64,000 nt of DNA. Source: Candidatus Thiodictyon syntrophicum (GTDB lineage Bacteria > Pseudomonadota > Gammaproteobacteria > Chromatiales > Chromatiaceae). Positions within the stretch are counted from its first letter, which is position 1. Each line of letters begins with the position of its first letter. Location of the stretch: the NCBI RefSeq assembly GCF_002813775.1, contig NZ_CP020370.1:2567501-2631500 (forward strand), written 5' to 3'. Made by a program: the position numbers and the translations under genes. This document shows positions 1,123-8,358 of the stretch, in pieces. Under the pieces are notes generated by a model, which saw nothing but the letters and a program-made list of their open reading frames with translations, made no database searches and was not told where the DNA came from.

Positions 1123-2655
1123 TTTTACTTTGTTAAATTGCAATAGGCCATTGAATTTGATATAATTTTAGCAGCGGTAAAAATATATTCGGAGCGTGTA
1201 AGAGAAGCCTGGTGAATAAAACAAACTATGGTCAACCGGACTATGCTTTGAAAAGGATAGTAAAGCATCTATCAAATCATCTTGAAGGCTATCATGAATG
1301 CTTTCTGACCAAAACTTCCGATGGTTATGAGTTATGTCGAGGTTACATCAACGGCCTTCTGAAAACAGAGTCTGGTAAGCGTAACATCGAACGCCTTAAC
1401 GAAGAGATCGAGATGCCGGATAACAGCTATCAGCAGCTTCAACACTTTATCACGGATTCCCCCTGGTCTTCAGAGAGAGTCATGCGCTTAGTTGCCCAAA
1501 ATACATCTGATCTGTATGCCGACCAACACGACTATCGCTCTCGTGACGTCGGTTATATTATTGACGAATCCGCACATCTAAAGAAAGGCAACTATTCGGC
1601 GGGTGTTTCCAGACAATATGCTGGGGTGGTCGGAAAAGTGGATAACTGCCAGGTTGGCGTCTACGCGAGCTTAGTTTGGCAGTGTCACAGCACGTTGGTT
1701 AACTGTCGCCTCTTTCTACCAGAGTCATGGACCAGCAATCCAGAGCGTTGTGAAAGAGCGGGCATACCTCCTGACGCGCGTGCTTTCAAGACCAAGCTGG
1801 AACTGGCGCTCGATATGGTGACAGCAGATATGGCGGCAGGCGTGGAATTTGGCTGGGTCGGTGGAGACGGCGTCTACGGACATGGATGGGAATTAAGTAA
1901 TGCTATAGATAACATGGGCTTAACGTTTGTTTTCGACGTTCATTGCAATCAGCTAATTTATACCGTTGAACCAACGATTTCAGTTCCTGAGAAGAAGCCT
2001 GGGCCGGGTCGCCAACCGACGAAGCCACAAACAGATATAGATCCCATAACGGTGAAGAACTATGGCACTTCTCTAAGTTCTCATGCATGGCGAAACGTTA
2101 CAGTTCGCGATGCGGTTAAGGGGCCGTTGACGCTCTCAATTCATGCGGAAAGAGTGTGGGTCTGGGATGGCAAAGGTGATCGTGCAATAGAGCGAGTCTT
2201 GGTAATAAGCCGAAATCTGGCCGACAATAAGATCAAATACTCGCTAAGCAACGTTGACTACATGGAGACACCGATTGAAAGGCTAGCATACATGCAAGCC
2301 CAACGATATTGGGTGGAGCGTGCCTTTCAGGAGGCTAAATCCGAAATCGGGATGTCTGATTATCAAGTTAGGAAATGGAATGCCTGGCACCATCATATGG
2401 CACTTGTCATGCTCTCACTCTCCTTTATCGTAAAAGAGCGTATTACGCACAAACTTGAATACCCTTTATTAAGCTGCCGGGACGTTCGGCTGATGATTAT
2501 CGCGTTACTAACGCAGGATGAGGCTATGGTTGAAAAGCGTATTGCACAAATGGCGGTCAGGCATGATCAACGGCGTAGCGATATCGAGCGGCGTTACAAG
2601 ATAGCCTAGCCAGGCTAGTTGAAAAGCGGCCAGAATTCAAGTTAACAAAGTAGAA
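1123..2655 (+). mobile_element. IS701-family insertion sequence with TTAA target duplication
   Basis: This is a 1533-bp element. Its ends are inverted repeats: ttttactttgttaaattg on the left and, reverse-complemented, ttctactttgttaacttg on the right, matching at 16 of 18 positions. It is flanked by direct TTAA copies at 1119-1122 and 2656-2659, fitting the four-base YTAR duplication known for IS701 elements. It carries one transposase gene. It is clearly richer in A and T than its host region, and the interrupted gene is restored in frame by its removal, so insertion was probably recent. It sits inside an S10 carboxypeptidase gene, in the opposite orientation. Confidence 0.9.
1212..2609 (+). 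CDS. IS701-family transposase
   Basis: This 465-residue DDE transposase cuts and joins the ends of the surrounding element. Family signatures include SPWSSERVMRLV (about residues 83-94), YIIDESAHLKKG with the first catalytic Asp at about 118, SRQYAGVVGKVDNCQVGV just after it, and GWVGGDGVYGHG with the second Asp at about 219. The region YWVERAFQEAKSEIGM, followed by WNAWHHHMAL, should carry the catalytic Glu. The start is GTG at 1212, preceded by a weak purine-rich stretch (aagagaag), and the stop at 2609 lies 46 bases before the right end. The length is typical of the family, and no frameshift or missing catalytic residue is apparent, so the element may still be mobile. Confidence 0.92.
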   Translation: MNKTNYGQPDYALKRIVKHLSNHLEGYHECFLTKTSDGYELCRGYINGLLKTESGKRNIERLNEEIEMPDNSYQQLQHFITDSPWSSERVMRLVAQNTSDLYADQHDYRSRDVGYIIDESAHLKKGNYSAGVSRQYAGVVGKVDNCQVGVYASLVWQCHSTLVNCRLFLPESWTSNPERCERAGIPPDARAFKTKLELALDMVTADMAAGVEFGWVGGDGVYGHGWELSNAIDNMGLTFVFDVHCNQLIYTVEPTISVPEKKPGPGRQPTKPQTDIDPITVKNYGTSLSSHAWRNVTVRDAVKGPLTLSIHAERVWVWDGKGDRAIERVLVISRNLADNKIKYSLSNVDYMETPIERLAYMQAQRYWVERAFQEAKSEIGMSDYQVRKWNAWHHHMALVMLSLSFIVKERITHKLEYPLLSCRDVRLMIIALLTQDEAMVEKRIAQMAVRHDQRRSDIERRYKIA

Positions 2656-3224
2656 TTAAGGAAGCGCAACAGCACCCGTACCAGCTGGGCCGCATCGATA
2701 TAGGGGTTGAAATTCTGGGCGTCGTAGAACCCGAACGTGTAGTCGAAATCGGTGGGGCTGAGATTGTATGAGTAGCCGGTGGCGGGGGCGTCGATGTAGA
2801 GCAGATGGCCCATGCGCGTCCAGGAATACGCATTGAGCGAGGTGGCTGCTTGCTCGGGCGTGGGACCCCAAGGCTCCGGGTGCATCGAGCGCGGACCCGT
2901 ATTGGTGCTCAAGAGACCCTCGCAGGTCGGACAGCCCGGTCCACCGTTGAAGAAGACGAACAGGGGCCTGGTCGCGGGGTTCTGGTTGGCGTCCGGATCG
3001 GCGGGGTGGAAGTTGTAGAAGATCTCCGCCCGGGAAGAGGTGAAGTCCAAGTGTTCGGTCTCCTTGCGGAGCTTGAACGTGATCTGCTCGACATGGGAGT
3101 AGCCGGCCTCCGGGGTGAGGGGCGCGGCCGACGCACCAGCGGCGCTGACACAGAGAGAGAGTCCGAAGGCGATGGTGGCGAGGGCGGATGACCCTTGCCG
3201 TAACAATCTCAAATAGCTTGCCAT
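2656..3224 (-). pseudogene. Serine carboxypeptidase (S10 family), 5' part, interrupted
   Basis: This is the N-terminal portion of the carboxypeptidase whose remainder lies at 95-1122. ATG at 3224 gives MASYLRLLRQGSS followed by a hydrophobic stretch and a plausible signal-peptidase site near SAAGASAAP, predicting export. A GTG at 3236 would add four residues. The segment FVFFNGGPGCPTCEG (about 2900-2950) is the oxyanion-hole motif of S10 peptidases, normally NGGPGCSS. The second Ser of that motif is replaced here by a Thr-Cys context, a modest deviation. The frame ends at the TTAA duplication flanking the insertion sequence. Bacterial S10 peptidases are uncommon, and the natural substrate cannot be deduced. 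Confidence 0.75.
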
Positions 3225-3454
3225 TATACTGCGCACCTAGCAAATCGTAAAGGGATTGATGCGATAACGCGCGGGCACTGGCTCCGGGTGCAGCGGGATC
3301 GGGTCGCGCACCGCGGCCGATAGCCGCGTTTGCCGGTAAACTGAACCTTGGTCAGCCCGCGACCGCTAGTGTAGACCACTGCCGGTATTGCGTACTGATA
3401 ACTCGCTTGCACTCCTGAGGCCCTGGTGTCGCACCGCGGGCACCGGGATCGCGC

Positions 3455-3820
3455 GTGGCTTCCCTGTCCCGGACTACGACCGGGTCGCCGCGCTGCCGGA
3501 GGATGCGGGGGAGGGCGTCGCAGCGCCCGCGCCCGATCCTGAGTCGGCGTCCGAGTTCGACCCGGTCGCGGTCCAATGGAGAAGGCCATCGACCCGGTGT
3601 TCCACTTTCCCCGCGGGACCCGCGCCGGGCACTCCCTGCACGACCTCTTCGAGCACCTGGATTTTCGTGACGCCGCCTGCCCGGCTATGACTATGACCAG
3701 GCGATCGGCGGGGTGCGTTATCTCTGTCCTGCGCGGGATGCGGCCGGCGGCCGGACCCGGCCGGGGCGGGCCTTGATTGAGGACCTGGATCGCCTTTTTG
3801 GCTGCACCGGGGCATAGTCC
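3455..3820 (+). pseudogene. recB: recB remnant (C-terminal nuclease region of exonuclease V beta subunit)
   Basis: Scattered frames on the plus strand carry recognisable pieces of the RecB C-terminal nuclease domain in the right order. HFPRGTRAGHSLHDLFEHLDF at about 3600-3665 corresponds to E. coli QFPRGASPGTFLHSLFEDLDF. GYDYDQAIGGVRYL at about 3682-3725 corresponds to DYDYEHHFGGVIYL. TRPGRALIEDLDRLFGCTGA ends at a stop near 3818. Between the first and second pieces, about 150 codons of the nuclease core are missing, and the pieces are not all in one frame. This is therefore a deleted, frameshifted relic and not a working recB. The assignment rests on remembered E. coli sequence. Confidence 0.65.
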
Positions 3821-3836
3821 TGGCGGGGCCTGACAG

Positions 3837-3856
3837 GTCCGCGCAGCGGACCCTAC
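3837..3856. repeat. Short palindromic repeat, GTCCGC-CAGCGGACC type
   Basis: The sequence gtccgcgcagcggaccctac forms a small hairpin (GTCCGC / GCGGAC) just before the radical SAM gene. Near-identical copies lie at 19199-19218 and 54107-54126, all intergenic, so this is a dispersed REP-like family. Confidence 0.7.
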
Positions 3857-3949
3857 GAGGACCAGTGCCCCCGCCCTTGACTGCGCCATCAGTAGGGCGT
3901 ATTTTCCCCGGCGTTCGGAAGGCATCACCCAAGCAAGGGGCGGTCAGCG

Positions 3950-5440
3950 ATGAGCTTTGGCGTTTCAAGCCCCACTGGGGGGAGTAGTGGAACGGTGGAA
4001 CAATTCAGAGTCGCCGACCGGCTTGCCCTGCTAGAGCGCGCCGGTGAGCATATCCTGTTCAATCCCGGGCGGGTCAACCCGATCTACTTCCCGCGGGGCG
4101 GTGAAGAGGCGCTGACACTGTTGCAGCGATTGCGTGAGGCCGGACCCCTGACGCGGCAGGCGCCGGACCTTTGCCCGCCCGACCTGTTCGATTTCTTCGT
4201 GGCCCACGGCCTGCTCGTACCCACGGCATCCCCCGTGACCGTCGGCGGCGCCTGCCGGTGCCAACCCGGCGCCGGACTCGCGCCGGCCAGAAGCCTGTAT
4301 CTTCTACTCACGCACGCCTGCAACCAGGCCTGCCTGTATTGCCTCAACGGGCGCAGCACCTATCATGAGGCGCCGGTGCTCGTCATGTCGGCCGCGGTGG
4401 CCCGTGATGCCCTACGCACGGTCTGTGAATCGATTGCCGCCGACGGCCGGATGGAGGTCGTTTTTTTCGGCGGTGAGCCGCTGCTCAACTGGCCCCTGGC
4501 CAAAGAGGCCATCGCCTACTGCGAGGAGGTGCTGAAGCCGGCCCATCCCGGCCAGACCTTCCACTATCACCTCACCACCAATCTCACCCTGTTCCCGGAT
4601 GACCTGGTCGCGCTGGCCCGTCGCCATGCGATCAGCTTCCTGGTGGACATCGACGGACCGGCGGAGCTTCACGACCGGATTCGGCCCCTGAAGGCCAGCG
4701 CCCGGCACGGCAGCAGTTTCCGCAAGAGCGCGGAACACATCGGCCGTTTGCGGGATGCGGGGCTGGAGATATCGTTGCGTGCGACCGTGACCAGCCACAA
4801 CCACGACCGGCTCCCGGAGGTGGCACAGACGCACCGTGCCCTGGGGGGCTCGGGCAGCGCATTTGTGCCCTTGAACGCGGTGGACTCGGACGAATGGATC
4901 ATGCCGCTGGACCTGTGCCCGGACCCGGCGCTCTATGCCCAAGGCCTGCGCGAGGTCTATCGTGAGCGGATCTGGCCGGTTACCTCGCTGTTTCCGTTCA
5001 ATGAATACCTGACGCGGTTACGGCCGAATCACCAGCCGGGCCTGGGCTGCGGCGCACCCTACGGCAACACGCCGGTGATCACGGCCGATGGCCGCATCTT
5101 TTCCTGTATCTATCTGGTCGGCATCGAGCGCTTTGCGCTCGGCGAACTGGCCCGCAACGATTTTCCACGCCCGGCGGTCACGGCGCAGATGCAGGCCATC
5201 GCCGCCAACCCGACCCGGCCGGAATGCGTGGACTGCGACTATCGTCAGTTGTGCGGCGGCGGCTGCCCGGTGGGCAAGTTCATCATCGCCGACAATCCGC
5301 ACGCCACGCCTGCCATCCGCCGCTACACGCAGGACGTGGTGTGCGCGACCAGCAAGACGGTGTTGACTGAATTGTTGTGGGATCAGGCGCAGGGGGACAT
5401 TTCTCAACAGGCCCGAGGCGATTTCAGGGGGCAGCGATGA
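3950..5440 (+). CDS. Radical SAM/SPASM peptide maturase
   Basis: This 496-residue radical SAM enzyme probably modifies the Cys-rich peptide encoded immediately downstream. Residues about 20-95 form a small region of the kind found as a leader-binding (PqqD/RRE-like) module in other maturases. THACNQACLYC supplies the CX3CX2C cluster motif at Cys124, 128 and 131, and FFGGEPLLNW follows as in the family. The C-terminus has a SPASM domain: GCGAPYGNTPVITADGRIFSC fits CX13GX4C, then CVDCDYRQLCGGGC fits CX2CX5CX3C, with a last Cys near QDVVC. It should therefore bind one SAM cluster plus auxiliary Fe-S clusters and could form thioether or other cross-links. Its TGA overlaps the next ATG (ATGA at 5437-5440), indicating translational coupling. 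The start ATG at 3950 follows a purine-rich ggggcgg. The actual reaction is not determinable from sequence. Confidence 0.85.
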   Translation: MSFGVSSPTGGSSGTVEQFRVADRLALLERAGEHILFNPGRVNPIYFPRGGEEALTLLQRLREAGPLTRQAPDLCPPDLFDFFVAHGLLVPTASPVTVGGACRCQPGAGLAPARSLYLLLTHACNQACLYCLNGRSTYHEAPVLVMSAAVARDALRTVCESIAADGRMEVVFFGGEPLLNWPLAKEAIAYCEEVLKPAHPGQTFHYHLTTNLTLFPDDLVALARRHAISFLVDIDGPAELHDRIRPLKASARHGSSFRKSAEHIGRLRDAGLEISLRATVTSHNHDRLPEVAQTHRALGGSGSAFVPLNAVDSDEWIMPLDLCPDPALYAQGLREVYRERIWPVTSLFPFNEYLTRLRPNHQPGLGCGAPYGNTPVITADGRIFSCIYLVGIERFALGELARNDFPRPAVTAQMQAIAANPTRPECVDCDYRQLCGGGCPVGKFIIADNPHATPAIRRYTQDVVCATSKTVLTELLWDQAQGDISQQARGDFRGQR

Positions 5441-6066
5441 AGAACGAGGTTGATGACGCCCGTGACGCGAACCTGACCGCTGGATCGCCATCGGCAGGCG
5501 TAGCGACGGCGGGGCGGGAAACGCGGCCGATGGTGGTGTGGGGGACGATCGCGGCGGTGTCCTTATTCGGTGCAGGTGCGGCCCAGGCCATGGTGGATAG
5601 TCATCGCACCAGGGCCGCCGTTACGCTTGATCAAGTCGGGCGAGGCGGCGCCGGGGAGTTGGCATGGAACTGCACGGGCTGCACGGATTGCGTGCAGAAC
5701 AATGCCCCGCCATGCACGAGTTGCACAAGCTGTACGAGTTGTACAAGCGGTTGTACGAGTGGTTGCACGAGCAGTTGCACGAACTGTACAGACTGCACGA
5801 GCTGTACGAACTGTAAGAGTGGTTGCACGAGCAGCTGCACGAGCAGCTGCACAAGCAGTTGCACGACCAGTTGCACGCAGAGTTGTACCGGTGGTTGCAC
5901 GAGTGGTTGCACGACCAGTTGCACGCAGAGTTGTACCGGTGGTTGCACGAGTGGTTGCACGACCAGTTGCACGCAGAGTTGCACCGGTGGTTGCACAGGT
6001 GGTTGCACGGCTGGTTGCACGGCGGGTCGCACGAGCGGCACGAAAAGCACCATCAACGGGAGCTAG
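5437..6066 (+). CDS. Cys-Thr repeat peptide, likely radical-SAM-modified RiPP precursor
   Basis: This 209-residue protein is coupled to the maturase by an ATGA overlap, with a good ribosome site (aggggg) eight bases upstream. Residues 1-32 are hydrophilic and leader-like. Residues about 33-52 are hydrophobic (VVWGTIAAVSLFGAGAAQAM), a signal sequence or membrane anchor. From residue 79 on there are 31 cysteines, almost all followed by Thr. In the first half many are spaced CX2 (CTSCTSCTSC); in the second half they are strictly CX3 (CTSSCTSSCTTSCTQSCTGG). A 16-residue unit, CTTSCTQSCTGGCTSG, is repeated about three times as a 48-bp DNA repeat starting at 5859, 5907 and 5955. There are no aromatic residues in the repeat region. 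The layout recalls the CXXX-repeat peptides paired with radical SAM maturases in Bacteroidetes, but homology is not established. Product, export route and function are unknown. Confidence 0.8.
   Translation: MKNEVDDARDANLTAGSPSAGVATAGRETRPMVVWGTIAAVSLFGAGAAQAMVDSHRTRAAVTLDQVGRGGAGELAWNCTGCTDCVQNNAPPCTSCTSCTSCTSGCTSGCTSSCTNCTDCTSCTNCKSGCTSSCTSSCTSSCTTSCTQSCTGGCTSGCTTSCTQSCTGGCTSGCTTSCTQSCTGGCTGGCTAGCTAGRTSGTKSTINGS
5859..6002 (+). repeat. Three 48-bp tandem repeats inside the Cys-rich peptide gene
   Basis: Units begin at 5859, 5907 and 5955 with ttgcacgaccagttgcacg and keep an exact 48-base period. The units encode the same 16-residue block, so copy number could change by slippage without breaking the frame. 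Confidence 0.9.
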
Positions 6067-6070
6067 GGTC

Positions 6071-6253
6071 GGCTCTGCGACAGGCACCCCACGGAGGCCG
6101 TGTCGCAAATCCGTCAAGGACCGGTGCTGCGTGCGCTAAGCAACTGATCAGAAAAGTCGAAGGCCGTGGCACGCTGTTTGCTCAGGGCTTTCCAAACGGA
6201 ATCGGAAGCGAACCCACGTCAGCCCCTCGTCCCCCTGTCACCATTAACGACAC
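6071..6253 (+). repeat. Direct repeat copy 1: duplicated nifV promoter and first codons
   Basis: These 183 bases match 6856-7039 at most positions. The copy contains the same stem-loop (tgcgacaggc ... gtgtcgca), the same -24/-12 promoter, and the first dozen codons of nifV. The nifV ATG is changed to ACG at 6216, so nifV translation cannot start here. The match ends abruptly near 6253, where the SPASM-like fragment begins. The pair marks the junctions of an insertion or tandem duplication just upstream of nifV. Confidence 0.85.
6167..6182 (+). promoter_or_regulatory. Sigma-54 (-24/-12) promoter, duplicated copy
   Basis: TGGCAC (6167-6172), five bases, then TTGCT (6178-6182) match the sigma-54 consensus TGGCAC-N5-TTGCA/T with the invariant GG and GC. 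It should drive the SPASM-like fragment downstream. No clear NifA TGT-N10-ACA site was found upstream. Confidence 0.75.
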
Positions 6254-6315
6254 AGCCTTTGCTGCATTTCGGATGCGGCGCGACTATTGAACAGAAAAGA
6301 CTGTCGGAGGAGCAC

Positions 6316-6804
6316 TTGTGCGACCTCTTCCTGCAACTGTGCGACTTGGGTCAACTCTACGGTACACGGGGGCTTTCTTTTTCTCTCACGTTTCGCACCA
6401 AGCGATTCCTGACCGAGCATCCTTGTGCCGCTTACGTCTGCAATGGGGCCCGCTGTCACCGTGGAGTGGCCAAGGAAATCAAGAAGCTCGTGATCCGGGA
6501 GGATGGCACCGTGTTCCCTGAAAGCCCAATGCTGGACCCTCGTTTCGCGCTCGGCAGCCTGTACGAAGACCGGCTTGGGGGGCTGGTCGCCAACTACTTT
6601 GCCGACGGGTATGCGCAGTTCGACCGCCTGTGCCGGTCGGTTTATCAGACCGTGATACCGACCTGGACCTCCCCCCTGATCCCCTGGAACGAGATCCTGT
6701 GCGAGCGCAGTTGGACCTTCGCCGACGCGGGCGCACCGGACGGCACCTGTCAGGTGCTGGATCAGTTGACCAGGACCCGGATTGGGCAGTCGGCATCCGC
6801 TTAG
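6316..6804 (+). CDS. SPASM-like C-terminal fragment of a radical SAM protein, fused to a copied nif promoter
   Basis: The open frame runs from 6166, but its first codons overlap the sigma-54 promoter and cannot all be translated. TTG at 6316, preceded by ggaggag, is the likeliest start and gives 162 residues. The protein has EHPCAAYVCNGARCHRG, then LVIREDGTVFPESP and RFALGSLYEDRLGGL, which resembles the auxiliary-cluster (SPASM/twitch) end of radical SAM peptide maturases: clustered Cys, then an I-DG-V-PE strand and an LG turn. There is no N-terminal CX3CX2C domain. It may be a truncated second maturase, captured downstream of a copied promoter, or a stand-alone accessory factor for the Cys-repeat peptide. 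The conserved frame and intact ribosome site favour expression under nitrogen-fixing conditions. Family assignment is by pattern only. Confidence 0.5.
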   Translation: MCDLFLQLCDLGQLYGTRGLSFSLTFRTKRFLTEHPCAAYVCNGARCHRGVAKEIKKLVIREDGTVFPESPMLDPRFALGSLYEDRLGGLVANYFADGYAQFDRLCRSVYQTVIPTWTSPLIPWNEILCERSWTFADAGAPDGTCQVLDQLTRTRIGQSASA

Positions 6805-6855
6805 GCGGGCCATACCGTCTCCAGCCGGGGCGTTACGCTGCCGGTTTCGGCGGTA

Positions 6856-7039
6856 GGCTCTGCGACAGGCGCCCCCTGTCGGGCTTGTCGCAAATCCGTC
6901 AGGGACCGCTGCTGCGTGCACTAAGCAACTGATCCAAAAAAATCGAAATCTATGGCACGCGGTTTGCTTAGAGCTTTCCAAACGGAACCGGAAGCGAACC
7001 CATGTCAGCCCATCGACCGCTCGTCACCATCAACGACAC
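6856..7039 (+). repeat. Direct repeat copy 2: original nifV promoter region
   Basis: This is the partner of 6071-6253 and includes the functional nifV start at 7002. Its 5' part holds an inverted repeat, tgcgacaggc / ggcttgtcgca, about 45 bases before the promoter. The stem could be a terminator for upstream transcripts or a regulator site. Confidence 0.85.
6953..6968 (+). promoter_or_regulatory. Sigma-54 (-24/-12) promoter of nifV
   Basis: TGGCAC (6953-6958), gcggt, TTGCT (6964-6968) match the sigma-54 consensus. Transcription would begin near 6980, leaving a leader of about 20 bases before the nifV ATG at 7002. Control by NifA is expected for nif genes, but an upstream activator site was not recognised in the preceding 150 bases. 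Confidence 0.8.
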
Positions 7040-8153: not shown

Positions 8154-8190
8154 CGCCCGTACCGGTTATGCAAGCGGGAGAAGATTTTTT

Positions 8191-8333
8191 GCCGCAAATG
8201 AACGCAAATAGACGCAAATTAATCCCTGACGGCCTCGGCAACCTGGTCGCGTCGCCAGTGTGCAGCGGCAGCAAGCTGCGGAAAGGCGCGATAGCGAGTT
8301 CTTCATTTGCGTTCGTTTGCGTTCATTTGCGGC
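8191..8333. repeat. Inverted GCAAATGAACGCAAAT element between nifV and cysE
   Basis: The left arm gccgcaaatgaacgcaaata (from 8191) and the inverted right arm ending ttcatttgcggc (8333) flank about 85 bases. The same design occurs at 34394-34530, and a relative at 35484-35610. This looks like a dispersed palindromic, MITE-like family. Confidence 0.75.
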
Positions 8334-8358
8334 CAAATCCTCTTTCGAGGGTATCGCG

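Follow-up and report, generated by a model that had tools for sequence, protein, structure and literature searches.

The locus described here raises the question of whether one radical S-adenosylmethionine (rSAM) enzyme can install the same cross-link tens of times along a single repetitive peptide. It lies at positions 3950-6066 of a 64,000-nucleotide stretch of Candidatus Thiodictyon syntrophicum DNA (contig NZ_CP020370.1, positions 2,567,501 to 2,631,500; hereafter the window), and consists of a gene for an rSAM/SPASM maturase and a gene for a putative precursor peptide in which nearly every cysteine is followed by threonine. The pair is real and is conserved in two Thiodictyon genomes at different places. 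Our reading, to which a probability of roughly 0.5 is assigned, is that the two genes form a stand-alone accessory system for a ribosomally synthesized and post-translationally modified peptide (RiPP), ranthipeptide-like in character, that links Cys to Thr many times. The observation itself is right and the pairing of enzyme and peptide is well supported; the chemistry is an informed guess.

An rSAM/SPASM maturase gene overlaps a Cys-Thr repeat peptide gene

The maturase gene (3950-5440, forward strand, as are all features of the pair) encodes a protein of 496 residues that scores 54.1 bits against the Pfam radical SAM family PF04055 (cutoff 29.5), placing it in the radical SAM superfamily. 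The initial annotation, made from the sequence of the window, had ascribed to it a CX3CX2C motif and a SPASM domain, and both are present. The former is CNQACLYC at residues 124-131 (4319-4342), and the latter follows the seven-cysteine SPASM pattern, CX9-15GX4C ... CX2CX5CX3C ... C, with a first part, CX13GX4C, at residues 367-386 (5048-5107), a second part, CX2CX5CX3C, at residues 426-439 (5225-5266), and a last cysteine, C465 (5342-5344). The seven-cysteine pattern, with an invariant last cysteine, is found in all three members of the clade to which the enzyme belongs, namely the window maturase, a sister copy from an uncultured Thiodictyon metagenome-assembled genome (MAG) and a more distant, 45% identical enzyme from genome G734. 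The NCBIfam SPASM model TIGR04085 matches all three, with a best E-value of 7.5e-12, and the Pfam SPASM model PF13186 has no match in the window maturase at E-values up to 1 and reaches 13.7 bits in the sister enzyme, below its cutoff of 21.5.

The peptide gene (5437-6066) encodes 209 residues and shares an ATGA at 5437-5440 with the end of the maturase gene, the overlap that had been described initially. An alternative and longer frame of 229 residues would start from a GTG at 5377, and the ATG at 5437 is supported as the start because the sister peptide likewise begins with MKN. Residues 1-78 (5437-5670) form a leader and spacer that is conserved in the sister peptide and contains the hydrophobic segment PMVVWGTIAAVSLFGAGAAQA at residues 31-51 (5527-5589). 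This segment may act as a signal peptide or membrane anchor, as its AAQA end resembles a signal-peptidase site, but its hydrophobicity is only borderline, with a best 19-residue Kyte-Doolittle mean of 1.55 (1.53 in the sister). A leader and a hydrophobic segment had been described ahead of the repeats; both do precede the repeats, and the hydrophobic segment sits inside the conserved leader.

The Cys-Thr array spans residues 79-195 (5671-6021). Its 31 Cys lie between residues 79 and 194 and are followed by Thr in 29 cases, by Val in one and by Lys in one; two Asp and no Glu are present. The 30 intervals between successive Cys comprise 20 of CX3C, nine of CX2C and one that is longer, and the final 17, which join the last 18 Cys, are all CX3C. 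Within this half, a 48-nucleotide unit encoding 16 residues is repeated in tandem 3.4 times with 94% matches (5858-6021). The Cys-Thr bias, the strict CX3 spacing of the second half and the 16-residue tandem unit thus all stand as first described. The CT dipeptide is also far more frequent than composition predicts. It occurs 29 times in the window array, whereas 20,000 shuffled versions of that array contain 8.5 on average and never more than 17; the 31 occurrences in the sister peptide compare with an average of 10.3 and a highest count of 21.

Repeats rich in Cys and Thr, with Thr arranged in ranks, are outlined for beetle antifreeze proteins in PMC8038014, and an array of this composition might fold into a Cys-Thr beta-solenoid of that type, the maturase being incidental. 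However, the beetle consensus, TCTxSxNCxxAx, needs a Thr before the Cys, which is seen at none of the 31 Cys in the window peptide and at four of 39 in the sister, and the period here is four residues, not 12. AlphaFold placed no solenoid in the peptide, but with a mean pLDDT of 39 the model is not usable and its silence proves little. Since Thr precedes none of the window Cys, a beetle-like repeat is very improbable.

The pair recurs at a second genomic location

When one genome per species was scanned with patterns that find close relatives, two maturase loci emerged, a close one in the uncultured Thiodictyon MAG and one at 24% identity in an Omnitrophota MAG. The former is the sister locus (L005, G005:C448). 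Its maturase is 81% identical to that of the window over 471 residues and is followed, after a gap of 18 nucleotides in place of the ATGA overlap, by a gene for a peptide of 259 residues with 39 Cys, 31 of which precede a Thr. The leaders of the two peptides align along MKN...TRxMVxWGxIAAVSLxGxGAAQA, whereas the arrays are of different length and combine CX2 and CX3 spacings in different proportions, the sister array being rearranged. The ratio of nonsynonymous to synonymous substitution rates (dN/dS) between the two loci is 0.196 for the maturase (491 codons) and 0.507 for the leader (75 codons), and synonymous changes in the array are saturated. Together with the shared pair, these values show an enzyme under purifying selection that travels with a fast-changing Cys-Thr array. 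The sister pair sits between genes for a VWA-domain protein and a dicarboxylate symporter, and this recurrence in another genomic setting supports the enzyme-substrate pairing that had been proposed from gene coupling and composition; the Cys-Thr peptide is very probably the substrate of the maturase.

The same comparison bears on whether the peptide is a decaying or mis-called reading frame laid over a simple DNA repeat. The array is indeed a 12/48-nucleotide DNA repeat, and a transposase gene and gene remnants lie in its neighbourhood. Frame and CT pattern are nevertheless the same in the sister despite the rearranged array, the leader is conserved, purifying selection acts on the enzyme, and synonymous codons are mixed, with TGC and TGT used 23 and 8 times for Cys and ACG, ACA and ACC used 21, 5 and 3 times for the Thr that follows, all of which makes this explanation barely credible.

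Relationship of the maturase to known rSAM systems

A comparison with radical SAM family models, suggested in the initial annotation, placed the enzyme among relatives that include PapB and the SCIFF maturases, but among the best 25 of the 70 NCBIfam families matched (lowest score 45.6 bits) it scores below every curated equivalog cutoff. The best-scoring model is that of PapB (NF047865), at 138.1 bits against a cutoff of 340. PapA, the substrate of PapB, is described as bearing several Cys links in one peptide, which is the likeness to the window peptide; PapA, however, uses CX3D/E, whereas the window array has no Asp or Glu at position +4 of any Cys, and its six links compare with 31 Cys here. 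The second-best model is the nif11-like peptide rSAM maturase (TIGR04064; 124.4 bits against 518.7), but the window precursor matches no NCBIfam family and so provides no leader match. SCIFF maturases (TIGR03974; 113.2 bits, cutoff 425), represented by CteB with its substrate CteA and by the Tte1186 system, are reported to form a Cys-to-Thr thioether, and CteB is the best solved relative of the window maturase. SCIFF precursors differ in having six Cys in ~45 residues with one link identified, as against 31-39 Cys here, and CteB is 17-18% identical to the window maturase in a structural alignment. The HxsB model reaches 103.5 bits (cutoff 370). QhpD (TIGR03906; 102.1 bits, cutoff 453) is a related enzyme for which side-chain thioethers are likewise reported, but its substrate is an enzyme subunit, unlike the peptide here.

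Three further systems resemble the pair in their repeats. The parallel drawn initially with CXXX-repeat peptides, which share CX3-spaced Cys, is not supported, as the corresponding maturase family (TIGR04115, cutoff 350 bits) is outside the best 25 of 70 families. The CefA/CefB Cys-every-fifth system (NF038108/NF038107) also has a long Cys-periodic array, but the CefB model scores 72 bits against a cutoff of 600 and the repeat period differs. In the poly-cyclopropylglycine system TvgB/TvgA, an rSAM enzyme is described as repeating one modification along a repetitive precursor, but the repeats are TVGG and the product is a C-C bond at Val. A CefA frame is also present elsewhere in the genome of the window (L024:8172-9149, G000:C1 at ~3.474 Mb; 46.5 bits against NF038108, cutoff 30). 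It overlaps the end of an rSAM frame whose best models, AhbD-like and mycofactocin-like, are below cutoff, and CefB is outside the best 25 models of that frame.

By sequence, the best match to the maturase in the Protein Data Bank is CteB (5wgg), with an E-value of 2.8e-19, or 2.7e-26 for a three-row profile. A Foldseek search with the weak structural model of the maturase also returned CteB as best (E-value 5.9e-12, TM-score 0.40, rmsd 24 Å, 467 columns). The N-terminal region of this low-confidence model (mean pLDDT 53) has strands at residues 26-30, 33-37 and 45-47 and helices at 51-63 and 77-85, and this strand-helix order is the only hint of an N-terminal RiPP recognition element (RRE).

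Proposed chemistry and competing explanations

In the proposed mechanism, the maturase would recognise the conserved leader, and its 5'-deoxyadenosyl radical and SPASM clusters would join the sulfur of a Cys to a side-chain carbon of a Thr. Repeated along the array, this would yield a chain of thioethers of the ranthipeptide type, in which the bond is not to the alpha-carbon, and the hydrophobic, AxA-ended segment might then let the product leave the cytoplasm or anchor it. Among these steps, thioether chemistry is fairly probable, Thr as the acceptor falls just short of an even chance, and export of the product is a guess that is a little more tentative still.

Thioether cross-links fit several of the families nearest to the maturase and are supported to that extent by its sequence. 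PapB, CteB and QhpD are reported to form Cys thioethers to the side chains of Asp/Glu or Thr (PMC8172795, PMC8326336, PMC9413430). The SCIFF bond is described as a Cys-Thr thioether at the gamma-carbon, and the link first reported for Tte1186 and CteB was Cys32-Thr37 (PMC8172795, PMC8326336). PapB is said to form both in-line and nested links and to accept Cys-Xn-Asp with n of 0-6 (PMC9413430), and TvgA provides a precedent for an rSAM enzyme that applies the same change over and over to a repetitive precursor (PMC9062424). In the CX3 half of the window array, a Thr stands five residues past each Cys (C-X4-T) wherever a further CT unit follows, which is the spacing of the Cys32-Thr37 link. Over the whole arrays, Thr is found at +5 from 21 of 31 Cys in the window and 22 of 39 in the sister, in addition to the Thr at +1 counted above (29/31 and 31/39). 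Taken with the precedents, these positions point to thioethers formed repeatedly between Cys and the side chains of Thr, the spacing being taken provisionally as C-X4-T.

The maturase could instead act on the array and form another bond, be it an alpha-carbon thioether (sactionine), a link from Cys to Asn or Ser, or a non-thioether change at Thr that leaves the Cys free for disulfides or metal. Its chemistry cannot be read off by homology because no curated family fits, a 13-row tree sets the three clade members apart by a stem of 1.61 changes per column, and Thr is stated to be one of the acceptors used in sactipeptides (PMC8172795). RumMC, the model for a sactipeptide maturase, however, scores lower than PapB (61.6 bits, cutoff 720, as against 138 bits), and CT pairing far above chance suggests that both residues matter. 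A different bond is a serious but less likely possibility.

Several results weigh against the reading of the pair as a repeated Cys-Thr cross-linking system. Besides the lack of a fitting curated family and of a usable model of the peptide, the maturase model is itself poor, no RRE-type family is among the Pfam matches of the maturase at E-values up to 1, and the few annotated neighbours include no recognisable leader protease or peptide exporter, apart from a truncated serine carboxypeptidase. The precedents for spacing are also contested: later work on CteA puts the gamma-carbon link at Thr34, leaving Thr37 versus Thr34 in dispute (PMC8326336), and the C-X1-T spacing that Thr34 implies occurs at only three of 31 Cys in the window and seven of 39 in the sister. 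An older review states that PapB rejects Cys-X4-Asp (PMC8172795), contrary to the range of 0-6 given in PMC9413430.

Enzyme and array, moreover, each occur apart. The expectation that homologs of the maturase adjoin Cys-Thr arrays holds for two of the three clade members, the window and its sister, and fails for G734, where no Cys array adjoins the enzyme. Upstream of that enzyme lies an open reading frame (ORF) of 126 residues with one Cys (L034:8015-8395, forward strand), which overlaps the likely GTG start of the enzyme by GTGA. Were this ORF the substrate, membership of the clade would not imply a Cys-Thr array, and the chemistry might require only one Cys. Its start, MAITAVSLLG, recalls the IAAVSLxG of the Thiodictyon leaders, but the similarity is not significant (hhalign probability <1%, E-value 0.088) and was rejected as evidence of a shared leader. 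The one-Cys ORF is a candidate precursor of another kind. Conversely, three viral contigs (L031, L032 and L033), whose long CX2C arrays are rich in CTN/CTD, share only CTN-type arrays with the window, and no CX3CX2C motif is present in their ORFs of at least 200 residues over 5.6-7.8 kb.

These cases would suit an array that serves as a structural peptide, binding metal or held by disulfides, with the maturase modifying something else, or the leader or a few sites only. The 31 thiols in a 117-residue array are compatible with such a role, and the AAQA-ended segment could direct the peptide to an oxidising place. Yet enzyme and peptide stay together, with the leader conserved, at different places in two genomes, and the viral arrays differ from that of the window in being spaced CX2C almost throughout and in having Thr after 41 of 74, 32 of 44 and 19 of 35 Cys, as against 29 of 31. 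A purely structural peptide is accordingly a decidedly unlikely explanation.

Under the reading of the pair as a Cys-Thr cross-linking system, a bolder version, which we regard as unlikely, can be sketched. The array of 117 residues would be disordered, and one maturase would build it into a chain of up to ~30 Cys-Thr thioethers, to be exported as a rod or lattice element that resists proteases and reductants; gain and loss of repeats would change its length in evolution while the enzyme stays constant. Some 30 thioether links would be more than in any thioether peptide known to us. A Cys-Thr array with an rSAM maturase was not found described in the titles and opening parts of abstracts of the papers listed. 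If the array is the substrate, the enzyme takes to an extreme the repetition of a single cross-link by an rSAM maturase, forming it tens of times and probably with Thr as acceptor; its host, a cultured purple sulfur bacterium, is remote from the Clostridia in which Cys-Thr links were described. The two natural arrays mix CX2 and CX3 spacings differently and are paired with enzymes of one clade, which offers a test of the spacing that the enzyme reads, and the system might become a tool for stapling repeat peptides. The maturases also add an rSAM clade that stays below the NCBIfam cutoffs of the models listed.

Distribution of the maturase and the peptide

Homologs were sought in eight genomes of the genus, in 210 (maturase) or 204 (peptide) genomes of the family, and in samples of 369 genomes of the class and 398 of the phylum. 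In the genus, six of eight genomes have a maturase match at an E-value of 0.001, the close ones being the window and the sister only. In the family, there are matches in seven of 210 at 1e-20, of which the same two are close and the other five are 27-32% identical; a search of the order covered the same number of genomes and added nothing. The class sample yielded the window genome itself and a 35% identical homolog in G293 (2/369 at 1e-28), and the phylum sample yielded the window genome and G734 (2/398 at 1e-40), which is the only one of 48 genomes in its own class to carry the enzyme. The window, sister and G734 enzymes are grouped in the 13-row tree (100/100), which has three long rows and leaves five of its ten inner branches open. 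Matches to the maturase occur in 118 plasmid records, all below 60% identity; the G734 enzyme has none in plasmids at 1e-30, and viral contigs contain no maturase homologs. In G293, two rSAM frames are adjacent, and a glance at the list picked out no small Cys-rich neighbour.

The peptide is narrower in distribution, being found in two Thiodictyon genomes only. Three of 204 family genomes matched at an E-value of 0.001, namely the window, the sister and G014; the phylum sample returned the window genome alone (1/398), and plasmids and phages contained no match. G014 was rejected as a homolog, since its match is a 62-residue frame over a 12-nucleotide DNA repeat that reads CASE and has no leader. 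That repeat (L029:1501-1617) gives CX3-spaced Cys in one frame, the surrounding 3.1-kb stretch holds a single CX3CX2C string inside a 228-residue frame, and G014 has no maturase match at 1e-20.

The neighbours of the more distant homologs are of a similar kind. In G009, of the same family, a 30% identical and SCIFF-like enzyme (326.6 bits, cutoff 425) adjoins a 93-residue peptide with 13 Cys (L017:7069-7350, reverse strand), possibly a new ranthipeptide, and this neighbour counts in favour of the proposed reading of the pair. In G091, also of the family, the enzyme exceeds the QhpD cutoff (705 bits against 453) and adjoins a gamma subunit, and G090 looks alike by eye. The enzyme of G182 adjoins an ORF that scores as an NHLP leader, with a second similar case recognised by eye. 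Another Thiodictyon genome encodes a QhpD-like maturase (L018:7014-8414, reverse strand; 324 bits, cutoff 453) beside ORFs of 805, 546 and 543 residues that appear by eye to be of LodA/LodB type and ferritin-like, and this locus is possibly a quinone-cofactor system.

Genomic setting beside nifV

The initial annotation had called the location of the pair beside nif genes unusual, but a meaning of this setting is not supported. In a close relative, G004, whose nifV is 98% identical, a RecB-like frame of 1279 residues (UvrD-helicase, PDDEXK_1) is intact and is directly followed by nifV. In the window, the 3' end of a recB-like gene remains as a remnant at 3469-3798 (forward strand), in three blastn pieces of 82-94% identity that match the end of the uninterrupted G004 frame. 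The blastn gap between window positions 3798 and 6964 measures 3,165 bases in the window and 224 in G004. As the 224 bases include, by eye, the start of the region upstream of nifV, the segment absent in G004 is placed at about 3799-6851, its right edge being set by eye. This segment, which carries both the pair and an orphan ORF, may be a gain in the window genome or a loss in G004. The sequence 3950-6066 has no match in stretches around nifV of five Thiodictyon genomes (G002, G003, G005, G006 and G007), in which ~7-9 kb upstream of nifV was searched per genome, but 1.4 kb for G005; in G001, nifV itself has no match at an E-value of 1e-60. Because the sister copy lies elsewhere and the RecB-like gene and nifV of G004 adjoin without the pair, the nif neighbourhood looks incidental, and a link to nitrogen fixation was rejected.

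About 187 bases, comprising the nifV upstream region and first codons, are duplicated in the window at 6067-6253 and 6852-7039 with 84-85% identity, and both copies match one single place in G007. The orphan ORF (6166-6804, forward strand, 212 residues) lies between the two copies and has no Pfam or NCBIfam match at E-values up to 1; the stretch 6256-6801 matches its own genome only among 136 genomes of the family, and the ORF partly resembles, by eye only, the C-terminal end of an rSAM protein. Upstream of the pair are a DDE_5 transposase gene (1212-2609) and the truncated serine carboxypeptidase gene (2637-3236, reverse strand), and downstream of nifV is an inverted repeat (8187-8337) with 36-nucleotide arms that are 86% complementary.

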